Both the position numbers and the translations under genes were made by a program. The notes below the pieces were generated by a model. It worked only from the letters and a program-made list of their open reading frames with translations. It was not told the DNA's origin and did no database searches. DNA of 64,000 nucleotides from Bacillota bacterium (lineage in GTDB: Bacteria; Bacillota_I; Bacilli_A; Izemoplasmatales; Hujiaoplasmataceae). Where the stretch lies: NCBI GenBank assembly GCA_018816905.1, contig JAHIVB010000012.1:62001-126000 (forward strand). The letters run 5' to 3'. Positions 13,251 through 42,446 of the stretch are shown here, one piece after another (positions within the stretch are counted from its first letter, which is position 1; every line of letters starts with the position of its first letter).

Positions 13251-13300
13251 TTTTGATTGCTGTATATTGATAGTACGCTTTATACAAAGGAAGTGTGAAA

Positions 13301-24237: not shown

Positions 24238-24315
24238 CGGTAGTCATCCATTGATAACATCCAGCATTACATTACAAAACTACGAATTATTGCATTGACA
24301 GATAGGAGAAACTTT

Positions 24316-25395
24316 ATGGAAATTAAAATGCAAGGATTAACAAAAATCTTCACAAGCAAAAACAAAAAAGAAGTTCGTGCGGTTGACAATGTAGATTTAG
24401 TCATCCCGTCCGGAAAGTTAATTGGTCTTCTTGGCCCTTCCGGTTGTGGAAAATCCACGACTCTTTATTTGATTGCCGGACTTTTAAGGCAAAACGATGG
24501 AAAGATTTTCTTTGGAGAAGACGAAGTCACAGAAACTCCTCCCGAAAAAAGAGGAATTGGCTTAGTTTTCCAAAACTACGCATTATATCCTCACATGACG
24601 GTACGTGAAAACATTCTATTCCCGCTTCAAAACCTCAAGATTGAAAAGCAAGAAGCAATTCAAAGAACAGTTGAGATTGCAGAATTAGTCGGGTTACAGG
24701 AAATGTTAGATCGTAAACCAAAAGAATTGTCTGGCGGTCAGCAACAACGTGTTGCGATTGCTAGAGCGCTCGTTAAAAAACCGAGGGTATTACTTTTGGA
24801 TGAACCACTTTCCAACCTTGATGCACGTCTTCGTCTTCAAACAAGAGAAGAAATCAAGAGAATTCAAAGAGAAACTAAAATTACAACCGTCTTCGTTACA
24901 CATGACCAAGAAGAAGCAATGTCCATTTCTGATGAAATTGTGGTTATGAAAGATGGAGTGATTCAACAAATGGGTGAGCCTCAACAAGTATATGATGCTC
25001 CTCTAAACTTATTTGTTGCAAGATTTTTAGGTAATCCACAAATCAATGTATTTGATGGAGAAATCAAGAACAAAGAAGTTTTGATTGGTGGAATGAAAGT
25101 AGGAAACACAATTCTTCCTGACCAACAAGTAACCGTCGGAATTCGTCCGGAAGGATTCGCAGTGGACACTGAAAAGAAATCTCCGTTCAAGTTTGAAATC
25201 GACATGGTTGAGACGATTGGTAGAGATACGACTCTAATCATTGAAGTCGAAAGCGGCGAAGGCGGAATTTTGGATAAAAAGACGTTCAAAGCCATTGTTG
25301 ACGTTGAACATCGCATTAATCCGGGAGATATGGTTCATTTCAAAGTTAAACCCGGAAAACTTCATTTATTTGATTTATCAGGAAGCATTCTTTAA
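24316..25395 (+). CDS. Sugar-type ABC transporter ATPase (MsmX/UgpC family)
   Basis: This 359-residue ATPase belongs to the MsmX/UgpC/MalK family that energises CUT1 importers. Walker A is GPSGCGKST near residue 41, the signature is LSGGQQQR, Walker B is VLLLDEPLSNLDARLR and the switch His is in FVTHDQEEAMS. A C-terminal TOBE/OB regulatory domain follows FLGNPQINVFDG. The ATG at 24316 has AGGAGA upstream. It is the first gene of a run with both permeases, a binding protein and nuclease genes. Many Firmicutes keep such ATPases away from the permeases, so its clustering here suggests a dedicated transporter. Confidence 0.93.
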   Translation: MEIKMQGLTKIFTSKNKKEVRAVDNVDLVIPSGKLIGLLGPSGCGKSTTLYLIAGLLRQNDGKIFFGEDEVTETPPEKRGIGLVFQNYALYPHMTVRENILFPLQNLKIEKQEAIQRTVEIAELVGLQEMLDRKPKELSGGQQQRVAIARALVKKPRVLLLDEPLSNLDARLRLQTREEIKRIQRETKITTVFVTHDQEEAMSISDEIVVMKDGVIQQMGEPQQVYDAPLNLFVARFLGNPQINVFDGEIKNKEVLIGGMKVGNTILPDQQVTVGIRPEGFAVDTEKKSPFKFEIDMVETIGRDTTLIIEVESGEGGILDKKTFKAIVDVEHRINPGDMVHFKVKPGKLHLFDLSGSIL

Positions 25396-25400
25396 TCATT

Positions 25401-26312
25401 ATGGAAAAGAAGAACAATCTGAGGGCGTGGATCTACCTCGCACCGCTACTCATCCTAATGACGGTCTTCACTTTTTATCCAATTGTGAATGCTTTTATCA
25501 TTTCAATCTACAAAGATTATCAACCGCTTGCAAATAATGGAGCCGGTATCATTACAGGATATACTCTACAAAACTTTCTTTTCATCTTTAAAAACCAATT
25601 ATTCTGGATTTCGGTAAAGAATACATTCGTTATCGCATTTGTTTCCGTTCCGATTTCTATCTTCTTATCTCTTTTCATTTCAGTAGCGTTAAAAAACATA
25701 CCGAAATTAAAAGGATTTTTCCAAACGATTTACTTTTTGCCCTATGTAACCAACGCTATTGCAGTTGGTATGGCCTTCGCATTCATGTTCCATCAAAATT
25801 ATGGATTGTTCAATGCAATCTTAGGTTGGTTCGGCATTGACGCCATCAACTGGATTGGCGGTACAGCAAGCTGGACCGCTCAGATGGGAGCATTGCTAAT
25901 CTACACTATTTGGAGCGGTCTCGCATTCAAAATATTAGTGTTTACTAGCGGAATGCAAAACATTGATAAACAATACTATGATGCAGCAAAAATAGATTCG
26001 GCTTCAAAATGGACCGTGTTCAAAAGAATTACCGTTCCATTGTTGTCGCCTCTGATTCTTTATATCTCCATCACTTCGATGATTGGTGCGTTAAAGGCCT
26101 ATAATTCAGTCGTGGGATTGTTTGGTATTCAAATGGGTGCTCAACCCTATTCAATGATGACGATCGTTGCGTTCGTTTATCGTTACGTTAGCGGATACAC
26201 CGATGTTGGATATATCAGTTATGCATCTGCCGCAGCCATCATCTTATTCATTATAACCGTTGTCTTCTCGTTGATTCAAGGCGTAGTTAGCCGTAAACGA
26301 GTACATTACTAG
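25401..26312 (+). CDS. ABC transporter permease, CUT1 type, first subunit (MsmF/UgpA-like)
   Basis: This 303-residue protein has six hydrophobic segments and belongs to the MalF/UgpA permease family. The EAA loop is YDAAKIDSASKWTVFKRITVP near residue 195, the contact point with the ATPase. It starts five bases after the ATPase stop. Together with the next gene it forms the heterodimeric membrane channel. The substrate cannot be read from the sequence. Confidence 0.92.
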   Translation: MEKKNNLRAWIYLAPLLILMTVFTFYPIVNAFIISIYKDYQPLANNGAGIITGYTLQNFLFIFKNQLFWISVKNTFVIAFVSVPISIFLSLFISVALKNIPKLKGFFQTIYFLPYVTNAIAVGMAFAFMFHQNYGLFNAILGWFGIDAINWIGGTASWTAQMGALLIYTIWSGLAFKILVFTSGMQNIDKQYYDAAKIDSASKWTVFKRITVPLLSPLILYISITSMIGALKAYNSVVGLFGIQMGAQPYSMMTIVAFVYRYVSGYTDVGYISYASAAAIILFIITVVFSLIQGVVSRKRVHY

Positions 26313-26324
26313 GGGGTGGATGAT

Positions 26325-27257
26325 ATGTCAGAAATATTCGTACAGAACGAAAAAGCATATAAAAGAAAACGTATCGCCGGCAACATTACTATTTATATTT
26401 TTTTAGCACTAGTTGCAATATCAATTTTAATTCCATTCTACTGGATGATTCTTACTTCATTCAAGAACGAAACTCAAATTACTCAAATTCCTCCGATTTT
26501 GGCGCTCTCGCCATCGGATTGGAAATTATCAAACTATACTGATTTGTTCTTGACCGTTCCAAGTGGGCCTCGTGCAGGAGAACCGTTGTTCCCATTCTTT
26601 AGGTATATGGCGAACACTGTCTTAATTTCCTTACTCACGACCGTAGGAACAACCATCACAACGATTTTATCCGCATTTGCATTTTCAAGATTGAATTTCA
26701 AAGGACGAGATACATTGTTCGCGGTTTTATTGGCGACCATGATGGTTCCTGGAGAAATTTTCATATTAACAAACTTCTTGACCATCAACAAATTCGGATG
26801 GTACAACATTTTTACTCAAACCTATGGCCAAGCCATTTTGGCAATGACGATACCGTTCATGGTGAGCGTGTTCTACATCTTCTATTTGAGGCAGACATTC
26901 AAACAGATTCCGAATGAACTGTATTTTGCTGCAAAAGTGGATGGGACATCCGATTTCAAATACTTATTGAAGATTATGGTTCCAATCGCAATGCCTACAA
27001 TTGTAACGATTATCATCTTAAATAGTATGGGTGCATGGAGCGCATACATCTGGCCGGCACTTGTTACCGCAAACGACAAATATCGACTAGTCAGTAACGG
27101 TCTCCGTGGAGCGTTTACAGATACATCCACAGGGCGTACCGATTATGGTCAACAAATGGCCGCATCTGTACTTGTAACATTACCACTGCTAATTGTATTT
27201 TTCACATTTAGAAAACAAATTATGCGTGGTGTATCACGAAGTGGTATCAAGGGATAA
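26325..27257 (+). CDS. ABC transporter permease, CUT1 type, second subunit (MsmG/UgpE-like)
   Basis: This 310-residue six-helix protein belongs to the MalG/UgpE family. A typical start region is PFYWMILTSFKNETQI, and the EAA loop is YFAAKVDGTSDFKYLLKIMVP near residue 205. The ATG at 26325 is favoured over a GTG at 26316 because GGGGGTGG then lies at good spacing. It partners with the preceding permease. A small hairpin (AAACC/GGTTT, 27258-27273) separates it from the binding-protein gene, which may adjust expression between them. Confidence 0.92.
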   Translation: MSEIFVQNEKAYKRKRIAGNITIYIFLALVAISILIPFYWMILTSFKNETQITQIPPILALSPSDWKLSNYTDLFLTVPSGPRAGEPLFPFFRYMANTVLISLLTTVGTTITTILSAFAFSRLNFKGRDTLFAVLLATMMVPGEIFILTNFLTINKFGWYNIFTQTYGQAILAMTIPFMVSVFYIFYLRQTFKQIPNELYFAAKVDGTSDFKYLLKIMVPIAMPTIVTIIILNSMGAWSAYIWPALVTANDKYRLVSNGLRGAFTDTSTGRTDYGQQMAASVLVTLPLLIVFFTFRKQIMRGVSRSGIKG

Positions 27258-27322
27258 AACCTCAATTGGTTTCATCATATATTCGAAAATAATATATTTA
27301 TATTTTGTATAGGAGGAAAAAA

Positions 27323-28966
27323 ATGAAAAAGATTTTGTTTGCTTTACTCACTGTTTTATCTGTTTTTTTAGTGATTGGGTGCGTTCAAGTTCAATCAGAA
27401 ACAACGACAACATCCATTACGACAACAACACAATTGGCAGAACTTCCCAACGAAGAAGTAGAAGTAACCTTCTGGCACATTTATGGAGAAGGAAAGTCAG
27501 CCTTACTCGATCAAATGATTGTTGAATTCGAAGCAATGTATCCGAATGTAACAATTACATCCACATCCCAAAGCGACTACGATACTTTGAGAACCAATAT
27601 CAATACCGGTATTGGAGTAGGACAGGTTCCAACCATGGCGATTGGATATCCTGACCATTTTGCAGGATATATTACTACTGGTGCAGTTGAATCTCTTGAT
27701 CAATACATCTACAGTACAACACAATATGAAGTAACCGATTCTACTTCTTCCATCTTTGGAGAAATCGTGGAAACAGGTTTGGAACTTTCAGACTTCATTC
27801 AATCTTACTTAGATGAAAACGATCAATATCAAGGCGGCTATTTCTATTCTGTTCCTTACTCTAAATCAACAGAGACAATGGCAGTCAACCGTTCTGTTTT
27901 GGCAGCTCACATTACGGAAATCCGCGCTGCTGGAATTACCATTAGCGACAATGGATTCTTATCACACGAAACTCCGCTTACATATGACCAACTTGTGATA
28001 TTGAAGAACATCATCGTTGATCCAGCCGGAACAAATGCAACAACCATGAAATGTGAATATTTGTTAAACTATGACTCTTCCGGAAACTTATATATCAATA
28101 TGAGCCGTCAATGGCATGCAGGATATACAAATTCTGATGGAGACATCTTAATCGATAACGCTACTACAAGAAACATGTTACAATTCCTTTATGAAAACTT
28201 TACAAGCAATACCATCGTATTGCCTGTTGCATGGAGCCAAAGCTACGGTTCTACAAACTTCATCTATGGTGACGTATGTATGAGCGTAGGCTCAACAGCC
28301 GGAGTTAATTACAACATTCCAAACAGCACCTATACACCATCTAGTTTGAAACTTGGAATTTTCAATGTTGACTTCTTACAAGTACCACAATATGTTACTA
28401 CCGATGACAGCCAATTTACAGTTGAAATCGATGGAACAGACGTTACAATGACCGGATCTCGTTCCGCTGTTCAACAAGGACCAAACATCGGTATCTTCCA
28501 CAGCGCAACAGCGGCTCAAAAATTGTATGCTTGGTTGTTCATCAAATATTTGATTAGCACCGACAACACTGCTAAATGGGCTATGAACACTGGATATCTT
28601 CCTGTTCGTCTATCCGCTTATTCTTCTGAAGAACAACTTCAGTTAAGTTCAACGTTTTCACTTACTTATTCAGAATTCCTTGGAATCGCTCAAGATTTCT
28701 GGGCAGCCGACGGAGAAGTCACTTGGGAACTCACAGACCAAAGATGGAATTATCTCTATTCTTCCATGGTTGCAAACATTGCGTTCAATCAAGCTGATTA
28801 TTATCAATATGACCCAGCGTTTGCGGCAGGATCACACAGTGCCGGATCCGCTACAGCTCGTGTTGAAGCCGGATACTGCTTGCAAAACATTTATACAAAC
28901 GTAGGTGTAACTAATTATTCACCTGACACAGCTTTAAACTTTATGATTAACCAATTGACTTGGTAA
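27323..28966 (+). CDS. Extracellular solute-binding lipoprotein (family 1)
   Basis: This 547-residue lipoprotein is the substrate-capturing subunit for the preceding ABC importer. The signal peptide ends in a lipobox VIGC, followed by a Thr-rich tether. The mature start VEVTFWHIYGEGKSALLDQM matches family 1 (sugar) binding proteins, as does the following EFEAMYPNVTI. It is clearly longer than the usual 400-450 residues, with extra sequence in the second half (about 330-480). AGGAGG precedes the ATG at 27323. Only 15 bases separate it from the thermonuclease gene, with no terminator, so capture and nuclease functions are co-expressed. Confidence 0.9.
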   Translation: MKKILFALLTVLSVFLVIGCVQVQSETTTTSITTTTQLAELPNEEVEVTFWHIYGEGKSALLDQMIVEFEAMYPNVTITSTSQSDYDTLRTNINTGIGVGQVPTMAIGYPDHFAGYITTGAVESLDQYIYSTTQYEVTDSTSSIFGEIVETGLELSDFIQSYLDENDQYQGGYFYSVPYSKSTETMAVNRSVLAAHITEIRAAGITISDNGFLSHETPLTYDQLVILKNIIVDPAGTNATTMKCEYLLNYDSSGNLYINMSRQWHAGYTNSDGDILIDNATTRNMLQFLYENFTSNTIVLPVAWSQSYGSTNFIYGDVCMSVGSTAGVNYNIPNSTYTPSSLKLGIFNVDFLQVPQYVTTDDSQFTVEIDGTDVTMTGSRSAVQQGPNIGIFHSATAAQKLYAWLFIKYLISTDNTAKWAMNTGYLPVRLSAYSSEEQLQLSSTFSLTYSEFLGIAQDFWAADGEVTWELTDQRWNYLYSSMVANIAFNQADYYQYDPAFAAGSHSAGSATARVEAGYCLQNIYTNVGVTNYSPDTALNFMINQLTW

Positions 28967-28981
28967 AAGGATTGAAACCGA

Positions 28982-30469
28982 ATGTTTAAAAAAATTGGAA
29001 TTTTAAGTCTGGCAGCGCTATTACTATTCATGCTTGGAGGATGTGTTCAAACCACAACCACCACGACAACTGAAGATCCGAATGTTGCGCTGCCGGATCT
29101 TTCCGGAATGTCCAGAGTTGAAATATCATCCGCTTTGGAAAGTCTGGATCTTACAGTCAGTTATTACTTTGATGTTTCCGAGGTATATACGAGCGAAGAC
29201 CAATATGACAAGTTCGTTATGTATGGCTCTGACTTATCCTCAGGCGATATCGTCGCAAGAGGATCAACTGTCAAAGTCTACACTACTCCACTGAATTTAA
29301 CTGTTCAGTACTTGTATGAAATCGGAAATTACACAGATTCTTATGGAAATTCTCTTCAACTTGAAGCAGAAGACTTTCAAGATAAAGAATTTATTGAAGA
29401 CGGCATTGGAGAAGTCACCGTTTCTAAATTTGTGGACGGAGATACGACTTGGTTTAACAGTGGCTCTCAATCATTTTCTGTTCGTTATCTTGGAATCGAT
29501 ACCCCCGAATCTACCGCTTTATATGAACCGTGGGGTAAAGCTGCAGCTCATTTCACTCAAGAAGTTTTGAGCAGTGCAGAACAAATCGTACTTCAAGCAG
29601 AAGGAGAACGTACTGATGGCAACGGCAGATATTTAGCTTGGGTCTGGTACCTTCCTTCAGGAGAAGACACCTTCTTATTGCTCAATCTCCAGTTAGTAGA
29701 GTTGGCATATTCAAAAAACAAAGTATCATCAGGCAGTGTATTTAATGATATTTTGGGATTGGCGAATTTCAACGCTTCTTTAACAAAGAGAAGAGTTTGG
29801 GGAGAAGTTGATCCTAATTATGACTACTCTAAAGAAGGAACTCAAATGTCGATAGCATATCTGCTTGAGAATTTTGATGACTATGTTGGACTTAAAGTAG
29901 TTATATCTGCACAGATTACGAGAATCTATGAGAATAATATCTATCTTCAAGATGATTCCGGCAAAGGAATCAACATGTACATTGGGTATTCTACTCAAAC
30001 AGCTCAGCTTCAACTTGGAGTCCATTTGACGGTTGGTGCTTTAGTGCCAACGTATTACAACGGGTCTCCTCAATTGTCAAACTTCAATGCGTTCAACGTT
30101 TCTATTAATACTGATACTTACGAAGTTGAACCGACTGTAGTGACTTCATCAGATTTTAATTTTGAATTACTTGGAACGCTTGTGACGATGGAACATTTGC
30201 ATGTGACTTCTTCCAGTGTTTCACCAACAACCGGAATTACCAGTATCTATGTAATGGACGATTTAGGTAACACCTTTTCGATTCGTGCAGGTGCTTATTC
30301 CGGTGTAGATTTAGATGAATTAGGTATAACCGCCGGAGATTACATCACGGTTACAGGACCCCTATCATATTATGACTATAATTACAATAACGACCCCGAG
30401 ACTTATGTTTATGATATGGCAAATGTGCAATTGATTCTAACATCCAGCGATGATATAGTGAAAGATTAA
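28982..30469 (+). CDS. Thermonuclease lipoprotein with PASTA-like and OB-fold domains
   Basis: This 495-residue lipoprotein probably cuts DNA or RNA at the cell surface. The lipobox is LGGC (Cys about 21), then a run of seven Thr. A PASTA-like domain spans about 35-100 (LPDLSGMSRVEISSALESL). The staphylococcal-nuclease domain covers about 130-270: KFVDGDTTWF, the catalytic VRYLGIDTPES (Arg and Glu) and TDGNGRYLAWVW (second Arg), so the active site looks complete. Two OB-like domains follow (about 290-375 and 385-490). It is co-transcribed with the binding protein upstream and the giant lipoprotein downstream. Confidence 0.88.
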   Translation: MFKKIGILSLAALLLFMLGGCVQTTTTTTTEDPNVALPDLSGMSRVEISSALESLDLTVSYYFDVSEVYTSEDQYDKFVMYGSDLSSGDIVARGSTVKVYTTPLNLTVQYLYEIGNYTDSYGNSLQLEAEDFQDKEFIEDGIGEVTVSKFVDGDTTWFNSGSQSFSVRYLGIDTPESTALYEPWGKAAAHFTQEVLSSAEQIVLQAEGERTDGNGRYLAWVWYLPSGEDTFLLLNLQLVELAYSKNKVSSGSVFNDILGLANFNASLTKRRVWGEVDPNYDYSKEGTQMSIAYLLENFDDYVGLKVVISAQITRIYENNIYLQDDSGKGINMYIGYSTQTAQLQLGVHLTVGALVPTYYNGSPQLSNFNAFNVSINTDTYEVEPTVVTSSDFNFELLGTLVTMEHLHVTSSSVSPTTGITSIYVMDDLGNTFSIRAGAYSGVDLDELGITAGDYITVTGPLSYYDYNYNNDPETYVYDMANVQLILTSSDDIVKD

Positions 30470-30495: not shown

Positions 30496-33400
30496 ATGAA
30501 GTTAATGATCAAAAAATTATCATTGTTTGCGTTCATCGGATTGTTATTCTTAGCAATCGCAGGATGTACGACAACAACGACAACAGTATCAGAACTAACT
30601 GATACAGAAAAAGTCGCAGCGGTACTAGATGGAATTGATCTTGGTAACCTAACTGCAGTCACAGCGAATTTGACATTGCCGACAACTGTCGACGGAGTCA
30701 CTCTTTCCTGGTCTTCTGCAAATATCAACGTTCTTTCAAACGCCGGAGCGATTGTCGTTCCAACTTACACCACGGGGGATGTGACCGTCGTATTGACTGT
30801 TACAGCGACTCTCAATGATGTAACTGATTCAAAGACTTTCAGCGTAACAGTATCAAAAGAAACGGTTAGTGCTTTCCTTACCAGAGCCGGAAACTCCATC
30901 ATTATCAATGGTGCAGATGCCGTCACAGGTAATCTTAATCTTCCAGCAACCGTTCTTGGAGCTACAGTTACATGGGAATCTTCCAACACTGAAATGGTAT
31001 CCATCGCCGCAACAGCAGTAGACGGATTTTATGTCGCTACTGTAACTCGCCCACAAGCGGATGACGGCGGAGTTAATACCAGCGCTCAACTTACAGCGAC
31101 AGTATCAATTGACGATCAAGAAATTGAAGTCGTCAAAACGATTCTTGTCTTAGCTGAAAGCGCATCAACACATGTTACTTCTATTGCAGAAGGATTGTCT
31201 TATGCTTTAGGAACTTACATTACTTGGGAAGGCATGACGATTCTTGGTGTCGGTACAGACGGATTCTACTTCACAGATGGAACAGACGTAATGTTTGTTT
31301 ATAACACAGCAGTCGCAGCTACTGTTGAAGAAGGCGAAGTTTATGACGTTACCGGCGGTATTTCTCTATACAACAGTATTCCTGAAGTTCAAAATTTAGG
31401 AACAAACGTTGTTAAAGTGAAAGCATCAACAGTTGCAGCAAGAGATATTACTCCAGTTGTTGCTACCATCGATGAAATCATTGCAAACCATACAGGATAT
31501 ACAGCAGAAAACCCAATGGAATTCGGTGTATATTCAGTAACCGCAAAAGTATATTATGATCAAGCTCTTGGAAACTATGGAACTTACTTGGTATTGAATG
31601 ACGCAACCGGACTAGACAAGGCGCATGCAATTCGTATTTATTACAAATCCAATATGACTGCTGTTTCTGCATTAGCAGGACAAACAGTTACACTAGATAT
31701 CGTCATGTTCGGTTACAATAGTGGAGCAAGCTACCTCGACTGGTATGCATACTTCTTTGGAACCACAGAAGACATTGAAGTTACTTTCGCAAACGATCAA
31801 GACGCAGTTGATGCAGCATTTAATGCATTGACAATTCCAGCGGCTATCATCGAAGGAACTACTCTTGATTTGCCAGCATCCTTATTCGGAGTAACATTGA
31901 GTTATGCTTCCGATAATACTACTGTTGTTAATCCAACAACTGGCGTTGTCGATTTGTCAAGCTTGACCGGACAAGAAACAGTCACATTGACTGTAACTGG
32001 TACAAGAGGATCAGTAACAGATTCCACTACATTTGAAATCGTTGTAGGAGAAACTCCATTATCAACGATAGCTGAAGTATTGGCTATGAACACGACTACT
32101 GGATTAATCGCAAAAGTACAAGGTACAGTTTATGCAATTTATCAAACTGGATACTTTATCTTTGACGAAACAGGATTATTCCAAGTTTACACAACACCAA
32201 CAGGATTATCTCTAGGTGATGAAGTTGTCGTTTCAGGAACCGTTGCAGCTTATAAAGGCGAAGTACAATTCACCAGCGCAACCGTTGAAGAAACAGTTTC
32301 TACTGGAAATGATTATGCTCAAACACCAGAATTATTCATTCCTGGAGTTACGCAATTAGTTGCAGGACAAACTTATAATACCGTTGGAACCGTATTCTGG
32401 GGCAAAGCTACAGAAACTGGTTATGACAACCTATATATTAAGAGTGCTGCAGACACATTCATGTTCCAAATTTATTACAAATCAGTTCAAACTGAATACG
32501 ATGCATTGAAAGCAATGGCTGGACAAACAGTCAGCCTCAATTTCGTATATTATAACAACAAAGCAGCTTCGAACCCAGCAGACATTTCTACAATCTACTC
32601 CGGTGGAGCAGTTGCAGCTACAGACGCAGATAAAGTCGCAGCTGATAAAGAAGCTTTGGAAATTGAAACGGATCAAGTTTCCGGCGCAGAAGCAACATTG
32701 CCTCTTGTCGGTACATTCGGTTCAGTTGTTACTTGGGACGTTACAGCTCTTACTGGCGCTACATATGATTCAGTAACGGGTGTATTGACTTATCCTACAG
32801 TAACAGTCGATACTGATTTCACATTAACAGCTACAATTACGAGCGGATCAGCTTCGGATACACTAGCAATCACAGTATCTGTTAGAGCAGTCACAGACGA
32901 AGAAAAATTAGTTGAAGCACAAACTGCTTTGACAATCGCGTTAACTGCAAATGAATATGATACAGTCACACTACCAACCGAAGGATTAAACGGAGTTGCA
33001 ATTGTTTGGACAATCAGTTCAGGCGATGCAGTTCTTACAGACGCTGATTTGTTCTTTAACATGACCGGCGCTGCTTATGATGTTACTATGTTAGCTACTT
33101 TGACATTAGGAACTGAAGCAGACTTGACAAAAGAATTTACAATCGCAGTTTCGCCAATCACAGTAATTACTGATTTATCACTTCTTACTGCAAAATCTGG
33201 TGATCCACTAGTTTGGACAATTGCGAATGGAACAAGCGTTTATGTTCAAGGTGTCGTAACCGGATTGGTTTACGATGGCGTGTTTATTCAAGACGCTAAT
33301 GGCAACGGATTCTTCATGTATCGTCCAGTCGGAACCGTTGTTGTAGGTGATGAAATCGTAGCCAAAGGAACATTGGCAGATTATAGAAGTGCAAGACAGC

Positions 33401-35391
33401 TAGGAAATGGTGGAATTATTAAAACAATCCTTACTAGCGAAAATGTTGTTACTTCTGAAACTTTAACATTGGATCAAGTAATCGCATTGACTTATGCCGA
33501 TGCAGGATCTGTCTTCACAGTTACAGGATTAGAAGTTTACTCATACACTTCTTCCACAGTTATTTTCAGAGTCAACGGTACTTCTTCAGTACAATACTTG
33601 AGACTTTACTACAACGATTGGGCTTCTTGGTTGGATGAAGTTTATCCAGTAGGATCATTCTTACCTGAAGTACAATTCAATATGTACAATATTTATACTA
33701 CCAACATTGCAAATCCTGGAGATACATTCAATATCGACAACTTCTTAATCGAAGTTACGGACGAGCAATTGATTACTGTTGCATTGGCTTCATTGACATT
33801 GCCAACAGCTATCACAGAGGGAACTACTCTCACATTGCCAGCATCGTATGCAGGCGTTGCATTTACTTATGCATCAGACAATGAAGCAGTTATCAACTCC
33901 ACAACAGGCGTTGTAGACTTATCAGGACTTACAACTCAAGTTACGGTTACATTGACTGTTACCGCTACTTATGGCGCAGGATCCGACACAGCTACATTCG
34001 CTATCAAAGTTGGTACGATTCCGCTTTCAACCGTTGCTGAAGCAATCGCTTTGGCTGATGATGCTGTATTTAGAATTCAAGGTATTCTTACCGCTCAAAC
34101 AAAATCAACAGCTTTCTGGATTGAAGATGCAACTGGCGGATTGAATATCTATGCAGCTACTACAGACGTTCAAAACCAATTGATTCCATTGATTGGTCAA
34201 GAAGTGGAATTGATTGGTACAAAAGATTCTTATAACGGACTTCAAGAAATCGTCAATATCACTTCAGTAGTTGTAATCAATGCAACTCCTACCGCTATCG
34301 TTCCTGCGGATGTCAGTGCAGTCGCATTTGACTCAACCGGATTGTTACCATATCAAGGTGAACTTGTTAGTTTCCAAGGATTCATTTTGAAATATACGGT
34401 TACTGCAACTTCCGGATCTGTTAATTTCGTATTAGTTAACCCAGTTACGGGCGAAGAGATTACAGCTCGATTAGAATCTACATTGCCAACATACGCAGAT
34501 ACATTGGCTCAAATCAAAACATTTGTTGCCGGAGACGCAATTGATGTTGTCGGCGCAGTCATCGGATGGTACAACGGACCTCAAATCGCTGTTGTCGGTG
34601 CTAGCAACTTTGTTGCCGGAACAGAAATTACCGATCAAGTCATGGCTGATTACGAATTAACTAAAGTATCTCTTCCTACAACTCCAGTTACTGCTGATTT
34701 TACATTAGACGTAGCAGGTTTGTTTGGTGCTACCGTTGAATGGGCTTCTGACAATGCAGCTATCGCAGTCACAGGCTCAGCAGCGACAGTTACTCGTCCA
34801 GCAAATGGTGTAGGTGATGCGACAGTTACATTAACTTATACCGTTACTTATGGAACGGCTTCAGCAAGTGACACTGTTGTAATTACGGTTACTGAAGAAG
34901 CAGCTGGACCTGTAGAAACTGTTGCATACTCTACGGGATTTGAAGCAGCAGACGGATTTGTTGCTACAACGTCATACAACAATACTACAGTTTTGTTTAC
35001 AGGCGAAGCAACTCACCAATGGGGAACTTATTATGGTACTCCATCAACAACGAGCCCAATTGCCGATTTGCAATCATTGCAAATGAGATATTACACAACT
35101 GCACCTGAAAATTACGGATACACTTACACAAACTTCACAGTTGCAGACGTTACGAAAGTTGTCTTCTCAGCTAAAAACTATGCGAACGTTGCAGATGTTA
35201 CAGTATCATATTCAACTGATGGTGGTACTACTTGGACGGTAGCACAAGTTATCGACCTTACTACAACAGCTACAGAATATACTGTAAATATCAACTCCAC
35301 CGGAAATACAATGATTAAATTTGAATTATCCGGAACAACAGTTGCTGAAAGATTGACAATCGATTCTGTTTCAATCTTCAACATACAATAA
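30496..35391 (+). CDS. Giant lipoprotein with alternating Ig-like and OB-fold repeats
   Basis: This 1631-residue surface protein has a lipobox AIAGC (Cys 24) and a short Thr run. By eye about seven bacterial Ig-like (atrophied Big type) domains, recognised by LTLPTTVDGVTLSWSS-style strands, alternate with about eight OB-fold-like domains (for example GTDGFYFTDGTDVMFVY and YDGVFIQDANGNGFFMY). The last 160 residues (from about 1470) form a different beta-sandwich. No nuclease or other catalytic motif is visible, nor an LPXTG anchor. OB domains of this kind accompany secreted nucleases such as YhcR. It probably serves as a binding or scaffold protein. AAGGAGG precedes the ATG. Confidence 0.8.
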   Translation: MKLMIKKLSLFAFIGLLFLAIAGCTTTTTTVSELTDTEKVAAVLDGIDLGNLTAVTANLTLPTTVDGVTLSWSSANINVLSNAGAIVVPTYTTGDVTVVLTVTATLNDVTDSKTFSVTVSKETVSAFLTRAGNSIIINGADAVTGNLNLPATVLGATVTWESSNTEMVSIAATAVDGFYVATVTRPQADDGGVNTSAQLTATVSIDDQEIEVVKTILVLAESASTHVTSIAEGLSYALGTYITWEGMTILGVGTDGFYFTDGTDVMFVYNTAVAATVEEGEVYDVTGGISLYNSIPEVQNLGTNVVKVKASTVAARDITPVVATIDEIIANHTGYTAENPMEFGVYSVTAKVYYDQALGNYGTYLVLNDATGLDKAHAIRIYYKSNMTAVSALAGQTVTLDIVMFGYNSGASYLDWYAYFFGTTEDIEVTFANDQDAVDAAFNALTIPAAIIEGTTLDLPASLFGVTLSYASDNTTVVNPTTGVVDLSSLTGQETVTLTVTGTRGSVTDSTTFEIVVGETPLSTIAEVLAMNTTTGLIAKVQGTVYAIYQTGYFIFDETGLFQVYTTPTGLSLGDEVVVSGTVAAYKGEVQFTSATVEETVSTGNDYAQTPELFIPGVTQLVAGQTYNTVGTVFWGKATETGYDNLYIKSAADTFMFQIYYKSVQTEYDALKAMAGQTVSLNFVYYNNKAASNPADISTIYSGGAVAATDADKVAADKEALEIETDQVSGAEATLPLVGTFGSVVTWDVTALTGATYDSVTGVLTYPTVTVDTDFTLTATITSGSASDTLAITVSVRAVTDEEKLVEAQTALTIALTANEYDTVTLPTEGLNGVAIVWTISSGDAVLTDADLFFNMTGAAYDVTMLATLTLGTEADLTKEFTIAVSPITVITDLSLLTAKSGDPLVWTIANGTSVYVQGVVTGLVYDGVFIQDANGNGFFMYRPVGTVVVGDEIVAKGTLADYRSARQLGNGGIIKTILTSENVVTSETLTLDQVIALTYADAGSVFTVTGLEVYSYTSSTVIFRVNGTSSVQYLRLYYNDWASWLDEVYPVGSFLPEVQFNMYNIYTTNIANPGDTFNIDNFLIEVTDEQLITVALASLTLPTAITEGTTLTLPASYAGVAFTYASDNEAVINSTTGVVDLSGLTTQVTVTLTVTATYGAGSDTATFAIKVGTIPLSTVAEAIALADDAVFRIQGILTAQTKSTAFWIEDATGGLNIYAATTDVQNQLIPLIGQEVELIGTKDSYNGLQEIVNITSVVVINATPTAIVPADVSAVAFDSTGLLPYQGELVSFQGFILKYTVTATSGSVNFVLVNPVTGEEITARLESTLPTYADTLAQIKTFVAGDAIDVVGAVIGWYNGPQIAVVGASNFVAGTEITDQVMADYELTKVSLPTTPVTADFTLDVAGLFGATVEWASDNAAIAVTGSAATVTRPANGVGDATVTLTYTVTYGTASASDTVVITVTEEAAGPVETVAYSTGFEAADGFVATTSYNNTTVLFTGEATHQWGTYYGTPSTTSPIADLQSLQMRYYTTAPENYGYTYTNFTVADVTKVVFSAKNYANVADVTVSYSTDGGTTWTVAQVIDLTTTATEYTVNINSTGNTMIKFELSGTTVAERLTIDSVSIFNIQ

Positions 35392-35550: not shown

Positions 35551-37449
35551 ATGACTAAAAAGATTTTTATAGCACTATTATTATTTTTATTTACCTTTTC
35601 ATTAGTTGGTTGTGATTTATTTGGAAGCAAAACCACAACGACGACAGCAACTACCTTTGATACATCCGGAGTTACGACAACGACAACGACAACAACGACG
35701 GTATCAGAGTCTACTTCAACATCAAATTCTGATTTAGCTACATTAACTGGACTTGCAAATCTTGTCATTATTTCCGATCAAGACAACATGACCACAAGTT
35801 TTACCGTTCCGGCAGAAGTTGGAGATGCTACAGTAACTTGGGGGTCTAGCAATTCAGATTATGTTAGCGTTGCTTCCGCAACGATATTAAATGATCTTGG
35901 GAAATTTGTTTATCCTATTACCGTTACGAGACCGGATCAAACAACTGGTACAGTGACTGTTACATTAACCGGAACATTTGTTTTAGGTGATGCTACATAC
36001 GAAAAAGCATTCGTCTTACGAGTTCAATTTGAAGAAGACACTTCATTAGTGACAACAATTTCGGCAGGATTGGCTCAACCACTAGGAACATTCTTAACAT
36101 GGAAAGACATGACTATACTCGGCGTTGGAACAGATGGATTCTTCTTTACAGATGGAACGGATATCATGTTCGTATACAGCGCAGCTGTAGCCGCAACCGT
36201 ACAAGCAGGAGAAGTATATGACATCAATGGTGGAATAGGTTTATACAATAACGTTCCTGAAGTACAAAATTTAGAAACGAACATCGTTAGTGTAACACCG
36301 TCAACAGCGGCAGCTAGAACAGTAGAACCTGTCGTTGCGACAATTGATGAAATTATCGCAAACCATGTAGGGTATGATGCAACAAACCCAATGCAGTTCG
36401 AAGTCTACACTGTTACAGGTAAAGTCTATTATGATTCAGCTTTATCTGCGAACTATACAACGTTTTTAATCCCAGAGGGTACATCAACTTTGGATAAGGC
36501 TCACGCAATTAGAATTTACTACAAAGCGAATATGGCAGCCGTTACCGCGTTGGCAGGACAAACAATTACACTTGATCTAGTTTTATTTGGATTCAACAAC
36601 GCAGCTGGTTACGGTGACTGGTATGCATATTTCTTTGGAACTGCTGAAGACATCGTTGCTGAAACCATGACAGATGCAGATAAATTAGCGGTATCTGTAG
36701 GACAATTAGCTTCAAGTTATGATGTTACAAGTTCATTAACTCTTCCTACACTTTCTTTCGGATCCATTACAAATGTTACAGTCTCAACTGAAATCAGTGA
36801 CTATCTAAGTTATAGTGGAGGAGTATTCTCTGTTGTAAGACCTTCTGCGGATACGACAGGATCCATTTCAGTGACAATATCCTATAATGCAGAAACAGAG
36901 ACTGTTGTTATTCCGGTAACAATGAAAGCGGAAGTGGTGGTTGTTGAAGGTGACGATATCTTTATTTCTGAGTATATTGAAGGAAGTTCATACAATAAAT
37001 TTATAGAATTGTATAACCCACTGGATGTAACTGTAGATTTAAGCGAATATACTCTCGAGTTATATTCTAATGGAGCAACAGCTCCTACAGGAACGATGAC
37101 TCTTAGTGGAACTTTGGCACCAGGGGCAGTCATTGTATTGTCTCACGCTGACGCAACAATCTTTGCGGCAGCAATTGAAAACAGTTCAGTCATCAACTTC
37201 AATGGTGATGATGCCTTTGTTTTGAAACATAATGGAACAGTTGTTGACAGTATTGGTAAAATTGGAGAACGCCCAAGTGTTGGATATTGGGGTACTACTA
37301 CTTTAGGAACAAAAGATAATACTCTAGTTCGACTTTCTTCCGTCACGGGTGGAGATACGGATCCGTATGATGATTATGATCCAAGCACACAATGGGTTGC
37401 TTATTCAGTAGATACAGCAACTTACTTAGGGTCTCATACAGTAGATTAA
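35551..37449 (+). CDS. Lipoprotein with Ig-like, OB-fold and lamin-tail domains
   Basis: This 632-residue surface lipoprotein has the lipobox LVGC (Cys about 21) and two long Thr runs. An Ig-like domain (about 65-165) precedes a double OB-like module (about 165-385) that is very similar to residues 221-430 of the giant lipoprotein upstream. A further Ig-like region follows, then a lamin-tail domain (about 470-610) recognised by DIFISEYIEGSSYNKFIELYN and LAPGAVIVLSHADA. Lamin-tail domains often accompany secreted nucleases. No catalytic motif is visible. It has its own promoter and faces the endonuclease I gene. Confidence 0.85.
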   Translation: MTKKIFIALLLFLFTFSLVGCDLFGSKTTTTTATTFDTSGVTTTTTTTTTVSESTSTSNSDLATLTGLANLVIISDQDNMTTSFTVPAEVGDATVTWGSSNSDYVSVASATILNDLGKFVYPITVTRPDQTTGTVTVTLTGTFVLGDATYEKAFVLRVQFEEDTSLVTTISAGLAQPLGTFLTWKDMTILGVGTDGFFFTDGTDIMFVYSAAVAATVQAGEVYDINGGIGLYNNVPEVQNLETNIVSVTPSTAAARTVEPVVATIDEIIANHVGYDATNPMQFEVYTVTGKVYYDSALSANYTTFLIPEGTSTLDKAHAIRIYYKANMAAVTALAGQTITLDLVLFGFNNAAGYGDWYAYFFGTAEDIVAETMTDADKLAVSVGQLASSYDVTSSLTLPTLSFGSITNVTVSTEISDYLSYSGGVFSVVRPSADTTGSISVTISYNAETETVVIPVTMKAEVVVVEGDDIFISEYIEGSSYNKFIELYNPLDVTVDLSEYTLELYSNGATAPTGTMTLSGTLAPGAVIVLSHADATIFAAAIENSSVINFNGDDAFVLKHNGTVVDSIGKIGERPSVGYWGTTTLGTKDNTLVRLSSVTGGDTDPYDDYDPSTQWVAYSVDTATYLGSHTVD

Positions 37450-37506: not shown

Positions 37507-38586
37507 TTAACCTTGAAGATTGTCCCAAACGAGATCTACAAATTCAGGATAATCAATATAAGGATTTCTATTGTTTTGATAAGTATAAATTTCATTGTTT
37601 CTAGCTCTTTCAAAATCATCTACAGGGTCTAAATCATTCCATGCAAGCAAGACGCTTAATAGTCCCATCTGATGAACGTTTGGATACTGGTCAACAAGTT
37701 CTAGTACGGAATACATTGTAACCATGTAGAACAGAATTCTAGCGACATCACCCTTGACTTCGTCTCTTGGTTCAAAAGTAGTTGAAGTCGTTGTTAAGTC
37801 ATAATACTTATTTCCTCTTGATGAATTCCAGACGGGGTTTGCAGGTTTTAAATTGTGGATGTCGGAAGCCATATTAACTGTGCCGCCAGCATCTTCACCA
37901 AGTAAAGATTGTGGCCAAACGTGTTCTTTATTCCATGTGACTCCGCTGTCCCAGGTTCCACTAACGGATGCGCCTGTGTAAACCAGAATCACATTGCTTG
38001 AATTGTTTGGATCTCTGTCGGTATAAGCTAGTTCATAACTTGCGTCATAGTAAATATGTCCTTGATAACCGTTATTAACAATTGTTCTTAGGGCAAGAAG
38101 AAGTGTTTCTCCTACAAGTCCTTCTGCATTTTTGTAATAGAGCATATCGATTACTAAGTCCGTTGTAGGTTCTAAGACTGTAATATTGAATGTTGTTGTA
38201 AATGTAGAATAGGATACAGTTATCGTTTTTACGCCAGGAGTCGATGAGTCGAAACCTGAAAGGCTATATACGGAAGATGAAATGGGAATGGCTTGAGAAT
38301 TAGCTTTAACAAGCACAACGATAATGGAATCATAATCAAAGGATGTTCCCAAATTATATTCTAGTTTCGTGTTTTCAATCACAGAAATAGCAACGAAGCC
38401 GTTTGTCGTTGTTGCAGTAGTCAAAGTTGTCGAAGTCGTCGACTCTGTAGTTTGGCTTGATGTTGTTTGTGAAGACGTAGTAGAAGGAGTGGTTGTTGTA
38501 CTACCAAAAAATTCACAACCAACTAATAAAAAAGTGAAAATCAATAATAATGAAGCAACTAAAGTTTTTTTGAAAATGGGTCTCAT
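37507..38586 (-). CDS. Endonuclease I family lipoprotein
   Basis: This 359-residue lipoprotein is a secreted DNase of the EndA/Dns (endonuclease I) family. The lipobox LVGC (Cys about 24) is followed by a 40-residue Thr/Ser tether and a bacterial Ig-like domain (about 66-140). The catalytic beta-beta-alpha metal motif is WNKEHVWPQSLL with DIHNLKPANP and NSSRGNKYYD, all intact, followed by GDVARILFYM. The end NNRNPYIDYPEFVD is the family hallmark. It is convergent with the lamin-tail gene, and a TATAAT on the minus strand (38623-38628) precedes it. Confidence 0.93.
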   Translation of the reverse strand: MRPIFKKTLVASLLLIFTFLLVGCEFFGSTTTTPSTTSSQTTSSQTTESTTSTTLTTATTTNGFVAISVIENTKLEYNLGTSFDYDSIIVVLVKANSQAIPISSSVYSLSGFDSSTPGVKTITVSYSTFTTTFNITVLEPTTDLVIDMLYYKNAEGLVGETLLLALRTIVNNGYQGHIYYDASYELAYTDRDPNNSSNVILVYTGASVSGTWDSGVTWNKEHVWPQSLLGEDAGGTVNMASDIHNLKPANPVWNSSRGNKYYDLTTTSTTFEPRDEVKGDVARILFYMVTMYSVLELVDQYPNVHQMGLLSVLLAWNDLDPVDDFERARNNEIYTYQNNRNPYIDYPEFVDLVWDNLQG

Positions 38587-38738
38587 ATTTTCGTCCTTTT
38601 CTTGAAATGTCTAGGTCATATCATTATAACATAAAGGTTTTCTGAAATAAAGAATGATTTTGTTAGAACAACTCTTTAAATATGAAATTAGATAAATATA
38701 TGTTATAATATTCTACTAAGCTGAAATTGGAGACTACG

Positions 38739-39683
38739 ATGGAAAATAAGATTATTAATTTAGTTAAAGAGAACCAAATCATCATCATTTCAAGACACAA
38801 AAACCCGGATTTAGATGCTTATGGAGCACAATTCGGCCTTTACTATGCTTTAAAGGAGTATTTCCCAAACAAACAAATTTATGCAGTTGGCGATACCAAT
38901 TCATTAAATAGTTTTCAAGATTTGGATGAAGTATCAGAAGAAATTCTTTCTAATTCGCTTTTATTCATTTTGGATACCGTTTCAAGTCAAATGTTGAAAG
39001 ATGACAGTTATTCTCGCGCAAAAACCGTTGTATTAATTGATCATCATCAAAATGAACCCGATATTAGACATGATCTTTATTTAAGAAATGTCAAAGCATC
39101 TTCAACCTCTGAGATGGTCGCAAAAATGTTATCTCAAAACAGAATACCATATACAAAAGACTCCGCAAGAGCATTATTTATGGGGATCGTTGGCGATACT
39201 GGTAGATTTCTTTACTCTGGAACCACTTCTGAAACGATGAGAATAGCTGCGGACTTAATTGATGCCGGCGTAGATTTTTCAGATATCTACTCTAAAATGT
39301 ACACCGAAACATTTCAATCGAAGAAAGTGAAATCAGATTTCTTTCATTCGATTCAACTGACTCAACATAAGGTAGCGTATCATAACAACAACATTGCGTT
39401 TCTACAGAAACATCATTTAGATCCCAACTATGCAAGCAGGGGTTTAGTCAATCAAATGTCGGGAATTGAAGAAGTCCCAATTTGGGTTAACTTTACCGAA
39501 GACTCTAAAAACAATGTCATATTGGTGGAAATCAGATCCAGGAGCATTCCTGTAGTAGAAGTCGCAAGAAATCATGGTGGTGGAGGGCATTTGCTTGCTT
39601 GTGGATGCCAATTGAAAACTTGGGATGAAACATTAATCATATTGAAAGAACTAGACCACTTATTGGAGGAATATAATGGATAA
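38739..39683 (+). CDS. DHH-family phosphoesterase, NrnA-like (first copy)
   Basis: This 314-residue cytoplasmic protein has the DHH and DHHA1 domains of NrnA, which degrades very short oligonucleotides and the adenosine bisphosphate pAp. Motifs are SRHKNPDLDAYGAQFGL (residues about 17-33), the name-giving LIDHHQN and the glycine-rich GGGGHLLACGC near the end. The ATG at 38739 has TTGGAG upstream, and TGTTATAAT at 38701-38709 is a likely promoter. It overlaps a second paralogue by eight bases. Placement beside secreted nucleases suggests it finishes imported fragments. Confidence 0.88.
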   Translation: MENKIINLVKENQIIIISRHKNPDLDAYGAQFGLYYALKEYFPNKQIYAVGDTNSLNSFQDLDEVSEEILSNSLLFILDTVSSQMLKDDSYSRAKTVVLIDHHQNEPDIRHDLYLRNVKASSTSEMVAKMLSQNRIPYTKDSARALFMGIVGDTGRFLYSGTTSETMRIAADLIDAGVDFSDIYSKMYTETFQSKKVKSDFFHSIQLTQHKVAYHNNNIAFLQKHHLDPNYASRGLVNQMSGIEEVPIWVNFTEDSKNNVILVEIRSRSIPVVEVARNHGGGGHLLACGCQLKTWDETLIILKELDHLLEEYNG

Positions 39684-40635
39684 ACAATTTATACTGGATA
39701 AAATTCTAGAATACAAAAAAATCATCATCCATATGCACGCAAGGCCAGACGGAGATTGTTATGGGGCTGGTTTCGGACTAAAAAACATTTTAAAGGAATC
39801 GTTTCCTGAAAAAGAAGTATATCTCGTTGGAGAAACGGCTGACTACGTTAGTTTTATCGGTGAGCCCGATATCATTCCGGATGAGACTTATCAAGGTGCT
39901 TTATCGATCGTTGTCGACACGGCAACTCATGAACGTGTAGCCGACCAAAGATATTCACTGGGAGAATATGTCATCAAAATCGATCATCATTTACCCGTAG
40001 ACCAATATGGAGATTATCAGTACGTTGATACCTCAAGACCCGCAACAGCTCAGATTATACTGGAATTCTATATTGAATTCTCAAATATACTTAAGTTAAA
40101 TATGGCAGCCGCAAGAGCTTTATATACTGGAATCATTACCGATACCGGAAGATTTAAATACAGAAGCGTAACTTCAGATACTTTTAAAGCCGTTGCTCAT
40201 CTTCTCGATTTTGGACTGGACTTCACTTCAGTGCTCTCTATTTTAGATGTTAAAAGCGAGAATCAACTCAAACTTCAAGGATATGTGCTCCAAAACTTTG
40301 AAAAAACGTCTAATGGTGTTGCTTATATCAAAATGACGCCGGAGATTATAAAAAAATATGAAGTTACACTTGAAGAGGCAACTTCATTGGTCAATGAATT
40401 GTCTGTGTTACAAGATTGTCCGGTTTGGATGTTGTTTGCGGAATACGAAAACAATATCGTCCGTGCGAGGCTTCGTTCAAAAGGTCCTGCAATCGATAAA
40501 CTCGCGAACAAATATGACGGCGGTGGACATCCGATGGCTTGCGGAGCGAATTTAGGGAATTGGGAATCGGTTGAAAAAATATTGATCGATGCTGATTTAC
40601 TTGTGAAAGAGTACAAAGAAAATAAGAAAGTATAA
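39676..40635 (+). CDS. DHH-family phosphoesterase, NrnA-like (second copy)
   Basis: This 319-residue paralogue of the preceding protein has the full motif set: HMHARPDGDCYGAGFGL, KIDHHLPVD, a VDTSRPATAQIILEF stretch and DGGGHPMACGANL. The classical PDGD sequence here is closer to the NrnA consensus than in the first copy (PDLD), so the two may differ in substrate. GGAGGAA precedes the ATG, and the eight-base overlap with the first gene shows coupled translation. It is the last gene before a terminator. Confidence 0.9.
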   Translation: MDKQFILDKILEYKKIIIHMHARPDGDCYGAGFGLKNILKESFPEKEVYLVGETADYVSFIGEPDIIPDETYQGALSIVVDTATHERVADQRYSLGEYVIKIDHHLPVDQYGDYQYVDTSRPATAQIILEFYIEFSNILKLNMAAARALYTGIITDTGRFKYRSVTSDTFKAVAHLLDFGLDFTSVLSILDVKSENQLKLQGYVLQNFEKTSNGVAYIKMTPEIIKKYEVTLEEATSLVNELSVLQDCPVWMLFAEYENNIVRARLRSKGPAIDKLANKYDGGGHPMACGANLGNWESVEKILIDADLLVKEYKENKKV

Positions 40636-40772: not shown

Positions 40773-42446
40773 ATGTACCCAATTATTTTAACAATCGATT
40801 GGAAAGTTACTATTTTTGAGATTCTTGGAGGGCTTGGTATCTTCTTGTTCGGTATCAATTTAATGAGTACTGCACTGAAGAAGCTAGCTGGGTCAAAATT
40901 GAAGTTGTTTTTAGAGAAGGCAACGAATACTCCTTTTAAGGGGATTCTTGTTGGTATTTTAATAACCGCAATCATTCAGTCATCTTCCGCTACTACGGCA
41001 ATCGTCGTTGGGCTTGTACGTGCAGGACTCATGACTTTGCCACAAGCGGTAGGGGTTGTTTTTGGTGCGAATATAGGTACTACCGTTACCTCGTTGTTAA
41101 TTTCGCTAAAAATTGGCGATTATGCAATGCCAATTATGTTTGTCGGAAGTGTTATGACATTTTTCTTTCAAGGCAGAAAAGTCAAGGAAGCAGGTCAAGC
41201 CATTTTGGGATTTGGAATGTTGTTCTTCGGTCTGGAAACGATGGGAGACTCCTTGAAACAATTAGTAGAGTTAGAAGCTTTCAGCAATATGCTCATAAGC
41301 GTGTCTGACATGCCAATCCTCGGCGTTTTAGTCGGAATGGTGACTACGGCTTTGATTCAATCATCATCGGCTACAATCGGTATTCTCCAACAGCTATATT
41401 CTACTGGAGGCGTACCTTTGATTGGTGCGATTGCAATTGTCCTAGGAGACAACATTGGCACGACTGTGACATCCGTTATGGCCGCCGCAGGAGGATCTTC
41501 AGCCGCAAAAAGAACCGCAGGAGTTCATGTTGTATTTAACTTAATCGGTTCGATCATTTTCCTAATATTGATTCATCCTTTTTTCTTACTTATATCATTC
41601 TTGGGAGAACATTTAATTCCAGATTTTCTTACGAATAAATTCACCATTTCATTGACCCACGTTCTATTCAACTTGATTAACGTGTTTATCATGTACTGGT
41701 TTATAAAACAACTTGTCTGGTTGGTGACCAAAATCGTTCCTTCGAAGAATGAAATAGCAATGAATGATGTAGTCCTTGAGGAACATTTGATCAAATCATC
41801 TCCTGATTTAGCTTTAGAGAACGCCCTTAAAGCCATTACAAATATGGGTAATGTTTGTAAAGTTATGTTTGAATATACATATGATTTTTCCATCAATAAA
41901 GATTTGAAAGTCAAAGAATTAGGAATTCAATGCGAAGAACTTCTTGATACAATGGACGATAAAATCCATAATTACTTAATCAAAATCAGCGCAAATGATT
42001 TGGGAGACAAACAAGTTCAACAAATCGCAAAAGACATGGACACGATTACAGATCTTGAACGTGTAGGGGATCATCTTACCAATTTAATTGAGTTTTTTGA
42101 CGAAAGACATGTTCAAAAGATAGAGTTGTTCCCGGAAGCGAAAGCAGATTTGACAGAACTTTATGAACTTTTGAGAAAAACGCTTCATCAATCCTTAGAA
42201 GCCTACGCTACCAAAAACAAAGAATTGGCGATGGAAGTGAATGTTCGGGAAGACCTTTTGGACAAATTGGTCAAGAAATACCGGAAAAATCATGTGACTC
42301 GCGTCAATGACAATAAATGTGCTGAAACAGATGCCGGATTCTATGTGGATATTCTTTCTAACATGGAACGTATCGGAGATCACTGTAATAACATCGTTAT
42401 AAACATTCTAAGCGAAAGTTATACTCACGACGACACTTATTTCTAA
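40773..42446 (+). CDS. Na/Pi cotransporter with C-terminal PhoU-like domain
   Basis: This 557-residue protein belongs to the NptA/YjbB family that moves phosphate with sodium ions across the membrane. Two inverted repeats carry the QSSSATT-type signature (IIQSSSATTAIVVGL near residue 70 and LIQSSSATIGILQ near 195), with GANIGTTVTS and GDNIGTTVTS. After about residue 330 a PhoU-like helical domain follows, with DLERVGDHLTNL and MERIGDHCNNI. Family members may import or export phosphate. It stands alone. Confidence 0.92.
   Translation: MYPIILTIDWKVTIFEILGGLGIFLFGINLMSTALKKLAGSKLKLFLEKATNTPFKGILVGILITAIIQSSSATTAIVVGLVRAGLMTLPQAVGVVFGANIGTTVTSLLISLKIGDYAMPIMFVGSVMTFFFQGRKVKEAGQAILGFGMLFFGLETMGDSLKQLVELEAFSNMLISVSDMPILGVLVGMVTTALIQSSSATIGILQQLYSTGGVPLIGAIAIVLGDNIGTTVTSVMAAAGGSSAAKRTAGVHVVFNLIGSIIFLILIHPFFLLISFLGEHLIPDFLTNKFTISLTHVLFNLINVFIMYWFIKQLVWLVTKIVPSKNEIAMNDVVLEEHLIKSSPDLALENALKAITNMGNVCKVMFEYTYDFSINKDLKVKELGIQCEELLDTMDDKIHNYLIKISANDLGDKQVQQIAKDMDTITDLERVGDHLTNLIEFFDERHVQKIELFPEAKADLTELYELLRKTLHQSLEAYATKNKELAMEVNVREDLLDKLVKKYRKNHVTRVNDNKCAETDAGFYVDILSNMERIGDHCNNIVINILSESYTHDDTYF

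Follow-up and report, generated by a model that had tools for sequence, protein, structure and literature searches.

Gene content of the locus

The window, which is the whole 64,000-nucleotide stretch of DNA analyzed here, comes from a member of the Hujiaoplasmataceae in the order Izemoplasmatales and contains a six-gene operon on its forward strand. The operon encodes an ABC ATPase, two permeases, a substrate-binding lipoprotein (SBP), a lipoprotein combining a thermonuclease (SNase) domain with OB folds, and, as its last product, a giant Ig/OB-repeat lipoprotein of 1631 amino acids. Same-strand gaps within the operon are 3 to 47 bp, with 26 bp separating the end of the SNase gene from the start of the giant gene. 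Promoter and terminator scans returned fewer sites than in shuffled sequence and were not used to set operon boundaries.

The ATPase (24295..25395) is of the MalK type and carries the Pfam domains ABC_tran and TOBE_2. Permease 1 (25401..26312) was assigned from its position and from homologues, 47 to 81% identical, at the matching place in family loci, and permease 2 (26316..27257) matches BPD_transp_1. The SBP (27305..28966) has a SBP_bac_8 domain and a weak match, below the cut-off, to the NCBIfam model of the mycoplasma P68 surface lipoprotein (E 3e-10). The fifth gene (28982..30469) encodes a lipoprotein with PASTA and SNase domains and a C-terminal OB pair, as evidenced by matches to Pfam PASTA, SNase, and DUF5689 and to an OB profile, which also indicates that the pair is of the giant's type. 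In the SNase domain, the positions of the catalytic set (Asp, Arg, Glu, and Arg) show no variation among the aligned relatives. The PASTA domain lies at the N terminus of this protein, although the lineage is regarded as wall-less.

Downstream of the operon, a 632-amino-acid lipoprotein (35551..37449, forward strand) contains two aBig_2 stretches, one OB pair, and a lamin tail domain, with no catalytic domain detected by Pfam. It is a paralogue of the giant, about 50% identical to residues 89-559, with the same level of identity between its OB pair and OB pair 1 of the giant, and is probably a duplicated, shortened partner; its match to ExeM is limited to the lamin-tail part. Convergent with the operon, on the minus strand, is a gene for a lipoprotein with Big_3 and Endonuclease I domains (37507..38586; Pfam Endonuclease_1, E 1e-34). 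The preliminary description had placed the giant next to nucleases, and this is the arrangement found, with the SNase upstream and Endonuclease I downstream. Next on the forward strand are two DHH-DHHA1 proteins of the nanoRNase/pAp-phosphatase type (38727..40635; Pfam DHH and DHHA1) and a Na/Pi cotransporter-PhoU protein identified by Pfam (40773..42446). Pst/Pho-type phosphate genes, named from sequence only, occupy the start of the window. Also, positions 13295-14788 encode a lipoprotein with metallophosphatase-like motifs and a weak match to 3',5'-cyclic-AMP phosphodiesterase, which could function in extracellular nucleotide dephosphorylation.

Architecture of the giant lipoprotein

The giant is encoded by an uninterrupted open reading frame (30496..35391, forward strand). 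Its signal peptide (30496..30567) ends in the lipobox LAIAGC, leading to Cys24, the sole cysteine of the protein and its predicted lipidation site; these features place the giant among bacterial lipoproteins and bear out the lipid anchor first proposed for it as a prediction. Seven stretches match the Pfam family aBig_2 (PF20578) with 198 bits against a cut-off of 27 (E 1.6e-59), a score above the gathering threshold that assigns the giant to the aBig_2 Ig-repeat surface proteins. Self-alignment identified four homologous OB units, each of about 190 to 210 amino acids, in the module order Ig1-Ig2-OB1-Ig3-OB2-Ig4-Ig5-OB3-Ig6-OB4-Ig7-Cterm. The initial count of about seven Ig-like and eight OB-like modules was therefore right, with the qualification from Pfam, self-alignment, and one AlphaFold2 model that the OB folds are arranged as four tandem pairs.

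Beginning at the N terminus, Pfam aBig_2 matches and alignment place Ig1 at residues 35-121 (30598..30858) and Ig2 at residues 122-222 (30859..31161). OB pair 1 (residues 223-430, 31162..31785) was delimited by the OB profile and by aligning it to pairs 2 to 4 and to the paralogue at 35551. After Ig3 (residues 431-518, 31786..32049) lies OB pair 2 (residues 519-705, 32050..32610), the pair with a predicted structure, analyzed with AlphaFold2 and Foldseek. Ig4 (residues 706-797, 32611..32886) and Ig5 (residues 798-890, 32887..33165) are adjacent, and they are followed by OB pair 3 (residues 891-1088, 33166..33759), assigned by alignment and the OB profile, and by Ig6 (residues 1089-1173, 33760..34014). 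OB pair 4 (residues 1174-1382, 34015..34641) is matched by the Pfam OB family BOF (E 6e-6) and, below its cut-off, by the NCBIfam model stress_OB_fold (E 4e-5). Ig7 (residues 1383-1470, 34642..34905) completes the series; like Ig3 to Ig6, it was placed by Pfam and alignment.

Residues 1471-1631 (34906..35388) are neither Ig nor OB. Reelin_subrepeat-B matches this C-terminal domain weakly and below the cut-off (E 6e-4), and a homologue of the domain in another locus (L079) matches choice-of-anchor J (choice_anch_J) with 26 bits against a cut-off of 30. The AlphaFold2 model of the domain, built from two sequences, is poor (pLDDT 51), and a beta-sandwich fold is therefore predicted from the weak matches and from predicted strands. 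Accordingly, the earlier view that the final 160 residues form a different beta-sandwich holds as far as a domain distinct from Ig and OB is concerned, and its fold is a candidate Reelin-subrepeat or choice-of-anchor J-like one. Many relatives have a lamin tail domain in place of this C-terminal domain (a lamin tail is present in 12 of the 49 proteins scanned, a set that includes the giant).

Scans with Pfam and NCBIfam found no catalytic family in the giant, in agreement with the first reading of the sequence. In particular, neither the EEP domain that characterizes the ExeM/NucH family nor another catalytic domain was detected in these scans. A phage origin was considered and rejected, as the giant had no match in 50,697 phage records.

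The giant is strongly acidic, with a pI of 4.05 and a net charge of about -121. No column of the OB alignment exceeds 40% K/R/H, and there are few or no conserved basic residues; the conserved positions are instead Asp557, Gly574, Gly581, and Tyr565, Tyr586, Tyr643, Tyr660, and Tyr661. Because the SNase domain from the giant's own locus, which belongs to a nucleic-acid enzyme, is also acidic (pI 4.40), low pI alone excludes no nucleic-acid contact. Perhaps a divalent metal would aid such contact.

The OB pairs resemble nucleic-acid-binding folds

For residues 514-714, AlphaFold2, given 52 aligned modules, predicted with high confidence two five-stranded OB barrels, one after the other (pLDDT 92.8, pTM 0.87); the model covers OB pair 2, and pairs 1, 3, and 4 are assigned by alignment. 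Foldseek neighbors agree with the five-stranded OB assignment: nearly all of the top 50 PDB fold matches are OB proteins that bind nucleic acid, with modest E values (best, 2e-4) and within a PDB whose OB folds are biased toward nucleic-acid binders. Among these best 50, the Oxytricha telomere end-binding protein leads, followed by entries that we take from their PDB codes to be the tandem OB domains of AIM2/IFI16; others are Stn1, RPA, SSB, and tRNA synthetases. Searches of the PDB with the OB profile gave STN1 (E 0.004), YgiW, RPA32, and the OB-EEP nuclease 9sf8/9sf9 as the best relatives, each an individually weak match (E 0.004 to 0.044). The single fold and profile matches are modest, yet they are mutually consistent and suggest that the OB pair resembles nucleic-acid-binding OB folds. 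Neither carbohydrate-binding modules nor pure adhesin repeats, which would have spoken against nucleic-acid capture, were seen for the modeled pair.

The OB profile matched 157 of about 1,437 open reading frames from related loci, mainly SNases and their downstream neighbors. Reversed and shuffled sequences yielded zero matches, which excludes a spurious or chance profile. Moreover, clostridial partners are already reached, with E values down to 6e-13, by a profile based solely on modules of the window. A search of 72,556 plasmid records with an OB module of one relative (L054) gave no match.

A comparison with the OB domains of YhcR-type nucleases, suggested at the outset, gave a divided result. 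Homologous modules in relatives match positions 1-126 of the ExeM/NucH model NF033681, which is its OB part (L054, E 5e-8; best in the set, 2e-12), whereas the giant itself has no match to this model at E 0.1.

Conservation of the giant and of gene order

The giant has relatives in 32 of the 34 family genomes and in 76 of the 90 genomes of the order. Across 20 neighborhoods within the family, the giant (about 1,000 to 1,770 amino acids in complete or almost complete copies) nearly always follows ABC/SBP genes. It stands directly after the SNase gene in half of them (10/20), and in most others it comes after the SBP gene, with a SNase-like gene at the opposite end of the cluster. In one exception (L049), no operon genes were recognized around the giant relative. 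In loci L036, L037, L038, L041, L042, L044, and L047, which represent several genera, the giant is directly after the SBP gene, and most of these have the SNase-like gene before the ABC ATPase gene.

When genome contigs were searched with the full-length giant, no relative was detected, and the SNase alignment was therefore used as the query in named genomes. This alignment alone selected 78 loci, 67 of which extend more than 900 bp beyond the SNase gene. The next gene carries one to six OB units in 65 of these 67 loci, a count that describes the one SNase subfamily picked by the search pattern, and the gap between the two genes is mostly 10 to 60 bp. Homologues of the ATPase, a permease, and the SBP precede the SNase in all 50 loci with at least 6.5 kb of upstream sequence, and a DHH homologue is found in 23 of the 31 with enough downstream sequence. 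The loci span Izemoplasmatales, Acholeplasmatales, other Bacilli, and Clostridia of the rumen and gut; for instance, a rumen Ruminococcus metagenome-assembled genome (L110) has the full cassette order.

The partner genes vary in composition from Ig-rich to Ig-less, and a simple pattern search detected a lipobox in 58 of 68 partners. Among 49 scanned proteins (the giant plus 48 partners), 31 contain aBig_2, 21 a Pfam OB-fold nucleic-acid-binding domain, and 12 a lamin tail, and Pfam detected a nuclease, phosphatase, or other known catalytic domain in none (0/49). The NCBI ExeM/NucH model matches 22 of the 49, and the ExeM model matches 9. In the cases read in detail, the ExeM/NucH match covers the OB part alone (positions 1-126 of a 546-position profile) or the lamin tail.

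Relation to known systems

Wasmund et al. published in 2021 "DNA-degradation loci" of Ca. Izemoplasmatales, naming UBA5603 among them (PMC8289736). The window belongs with these loci, in that it comes from the same order and colocates extracellular nucleases, an ABC transporter, DHH phosphohydrolases, and phosphate transport. The same paper describes a 1,049-amino-acid nucleic-acid-binding/lamin-tail protein in the locus and attributes a nuclease domain to it, whereas the giant has no nuclease domain and ends in a domain other than a lamin tail (PMC8289736). The OB partner in an Izemoplasma locus (L068) is 1,041 amino acids long and contains aBig_2, OB pairs, and lamin tail domains; it has no nuclease domain by our scans, and its ExeM/NucH similarity comes via the lamin tail or the OB part alone. 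This partner may be the 1,049-amino-acid protein, whose description it fits save for the nuclease domain (PMC8289736).

The bacterium of the window is probably a DNA consumer. Physiological evidence comes from Izemoplasmatales in culture: they break down DNA and use it for growth, and a supply of nucleic acids induces their DNA-degradation loci (PMC8397711; PMC10470597). In Xianfuyuplasma coldseepsis zrk13, reported in 2021, the EddB gene of such a locus was induced about 20-fold on DNA (PMC8397711). For Hujiaoplasma nucleasis, reported in 2023, about 27-fold induction was described for an extracellular ribonuclease, RecR, and a hypothetical protein (PMC10470597).

The extracellular DNases ExeM, Xds, NucH, and SsnA combine OB and EEP domains, often with a lamin tail domain (LTD), and share with the giant the type of OB region; an LTD occurs in the neighboring paralogue. 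Unlike these enzymes, the giant lacks an EEP domain, has OB pairs that are multiplied and separated by Ig domains, and is predicted to be lipid anchored. The homologous region of ExeM has been described as two OB folds whose deletion abolishes nuclease activity (PMC6085458), and deletion of the OB domain has the same effect in Xds (PMC6746945).

Also comparable is the mycoplasma SBP(P80)-SNase-ABC operon (MAG_5030-MAG_5070; also Mhp379 and MG_186), which is cotranscribed and has been interpreted as importing nucleotide precursors (PMC3585158). The SBP, the SNase, and three ABC components are common to both operons, but in mycoplasmas the ABC genes come after the nuclease, and no OB-repeat partner was reported (PMC3585158).

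Proposed function and alternatives

We consider it fairly probable that the giant is a surface nucleic-acid-capturing scaffold and the sixth, nonenzymatic part of an operon that joins nuclease and ABC importer for the use of environmental DNA or RNA. Through a lipidated Cys24 it would be tethered to the outside of the single membrane, with the Ig domains as spacers that project the tandem OB pairs outward from the cell. Together, these pairs would bind polynucleotide weakly but many times, concentrating it near the nucleases, and the concentrated polynucleotide would be cut by the SNase-OB protein and the convergently encoded Endonuclease I. The products would then be imported by the SBP and ABC permeases and processed by the DHH proteins and the phosphate transporter. 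We infer this sequence of capture, cutting, and import, and the cooperation between its parts, from the observed domains, the modeled fold of one OB pair, the lack of known catalysis, and the conserved gene order.

The OB fold and its profiles, the homology to ExeM/NucH, the OB-deletion experiments in other nucleases, the gene order, the noncatalytic partners, and the DNA physiology of relatives support a capture scaffold. The preliminary description had suggested a surface DNA-capturing filament or scaffold, and its premise fares well in that the OB pairs are like nucleic-acid binders in structure and sequence; less favorable to it are the giant's acidity and the lack of conserved basic residues in the OB alignment. 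OB folds also bind proteins and sugars. The main rival, which we regard as unlikely, is a protein-protein scaffold: the OB pairs present in the giant, in the SNase, and in the LTD lipoprotein would join each other or the SBP, with the giant itself off nucleic acid. Such a complex would account for the OB type common to the SNase, the giant, and the 632-amino-acid paralogue and for the strong conservation of the SNase-OB gene pair, and the acidity of the giant, together with its lack of conserved basic residues, disfavors direct DNA binding. That last argument, however, is weakened by the low pI of the SNase domain. Moreover, the nearest folds and profiles of the OB pair are nucleic-acid binders, and the range of partners, with one to six OB units and from Ig-rich to Ig-less, fits avidity and reach better than a fixed complex.

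Bacterial adhesins and secreted enzymes are often large and often carry Ig repeats or Reelin or choice-of-anchor J-like domains. The giant is large, has Ig repeats, and ends in a candidate domain of the latter type, and it might be a structural stalk or general adhesin, an Ig/OB rod for particle attachment or a surface coat whose place in the operon reflects a shared surface setting only. The recurrence of an OB gene after the SNase, with ABC/SBP genes upstream, across two classes is unexpected for a generic adhesin and makes this reading improbable. We give still less credence to an oligosaccharide-binding scaffold, with sugars as the ligands of the OB and C-terminal domains and as the cargo of the importer. 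The MalK-like ATPase and the SBP_bac_8 domain do resemble sugar ABC systems, and the C-terminal domain is of predicted beta-sandwich types able to bind sugars; yet the giant is surrounded by SNase, Endonuclease I, and DHH nucleases, and Pfam detected neither a glycoside hydrolase nor a carbohydrate-binding family in the scanned operon proteins. The mycoplasma relatives of the operon, interpreted as nucleotide-precursor importers (PMC3585158), also speak against sugar import.

Implications

Extracellular DNA is a major source of phosphorus, nitrogen, and carbon in sediments. The gene order described above points to a dedicated binding partner for the SNase-ABC importer. In polysaccharide utilization loci, a nonenzymatic surface glycan-binding protein is encoded beside a hydrolase and an importer. 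If our hypothesis of a capture scaffold holds, the giant would be put to a similar use, although the folds are unrelated and the polymer is different, which makes this an analogy and not a shared membership. We put forward, with evenly balanced confidence, the broader idea that a six-gene nucleic-acid utilization cassette is distributed across Bacilli and Clostridia, including those of the gut and rumen, and that its sixth gene represents a previously unrecognized class of surface nucleic-acid binders, the DNA counterpart of surface glycan-binding proteins, with the multi-OB giant as its expanded form in Izemoplasmatales.

New beyond the published loci is the combination of an OB partner after the SNase with ABC/SBP genes before it, from Izemoplasmatales to rumen Clostridia. 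A spread of the OB partner beyond Izemoplasmatales is not mentioned in the available text of PMC8289736, and within the literature searched, we found no paper that names the OB-repeat partner as a conserved component. The shared cassette links sediment Mollicutes with rumen and gut Clostridia. Also, ExeM- or EddB-like names on such proteins may reflect OB or lamin-tail similarity in proteins that lack the catalytic domain.

Individual loci show additional genes beside the cassette. In a genome of the same genus (L051:3052-9330), a further lipoprotein of 2,092 amino acids, with no BLASTP similarity to window proteins, is encoded directly after the giant. In the rumen Ruminococcus locus (L110:15394-18052), a second OB gene and a SurE-like gene come after the cassette, as do two DHH-like genes on the opposite strand, and these downstream genes are an independent grouping of nucleic-acid-processing genes.
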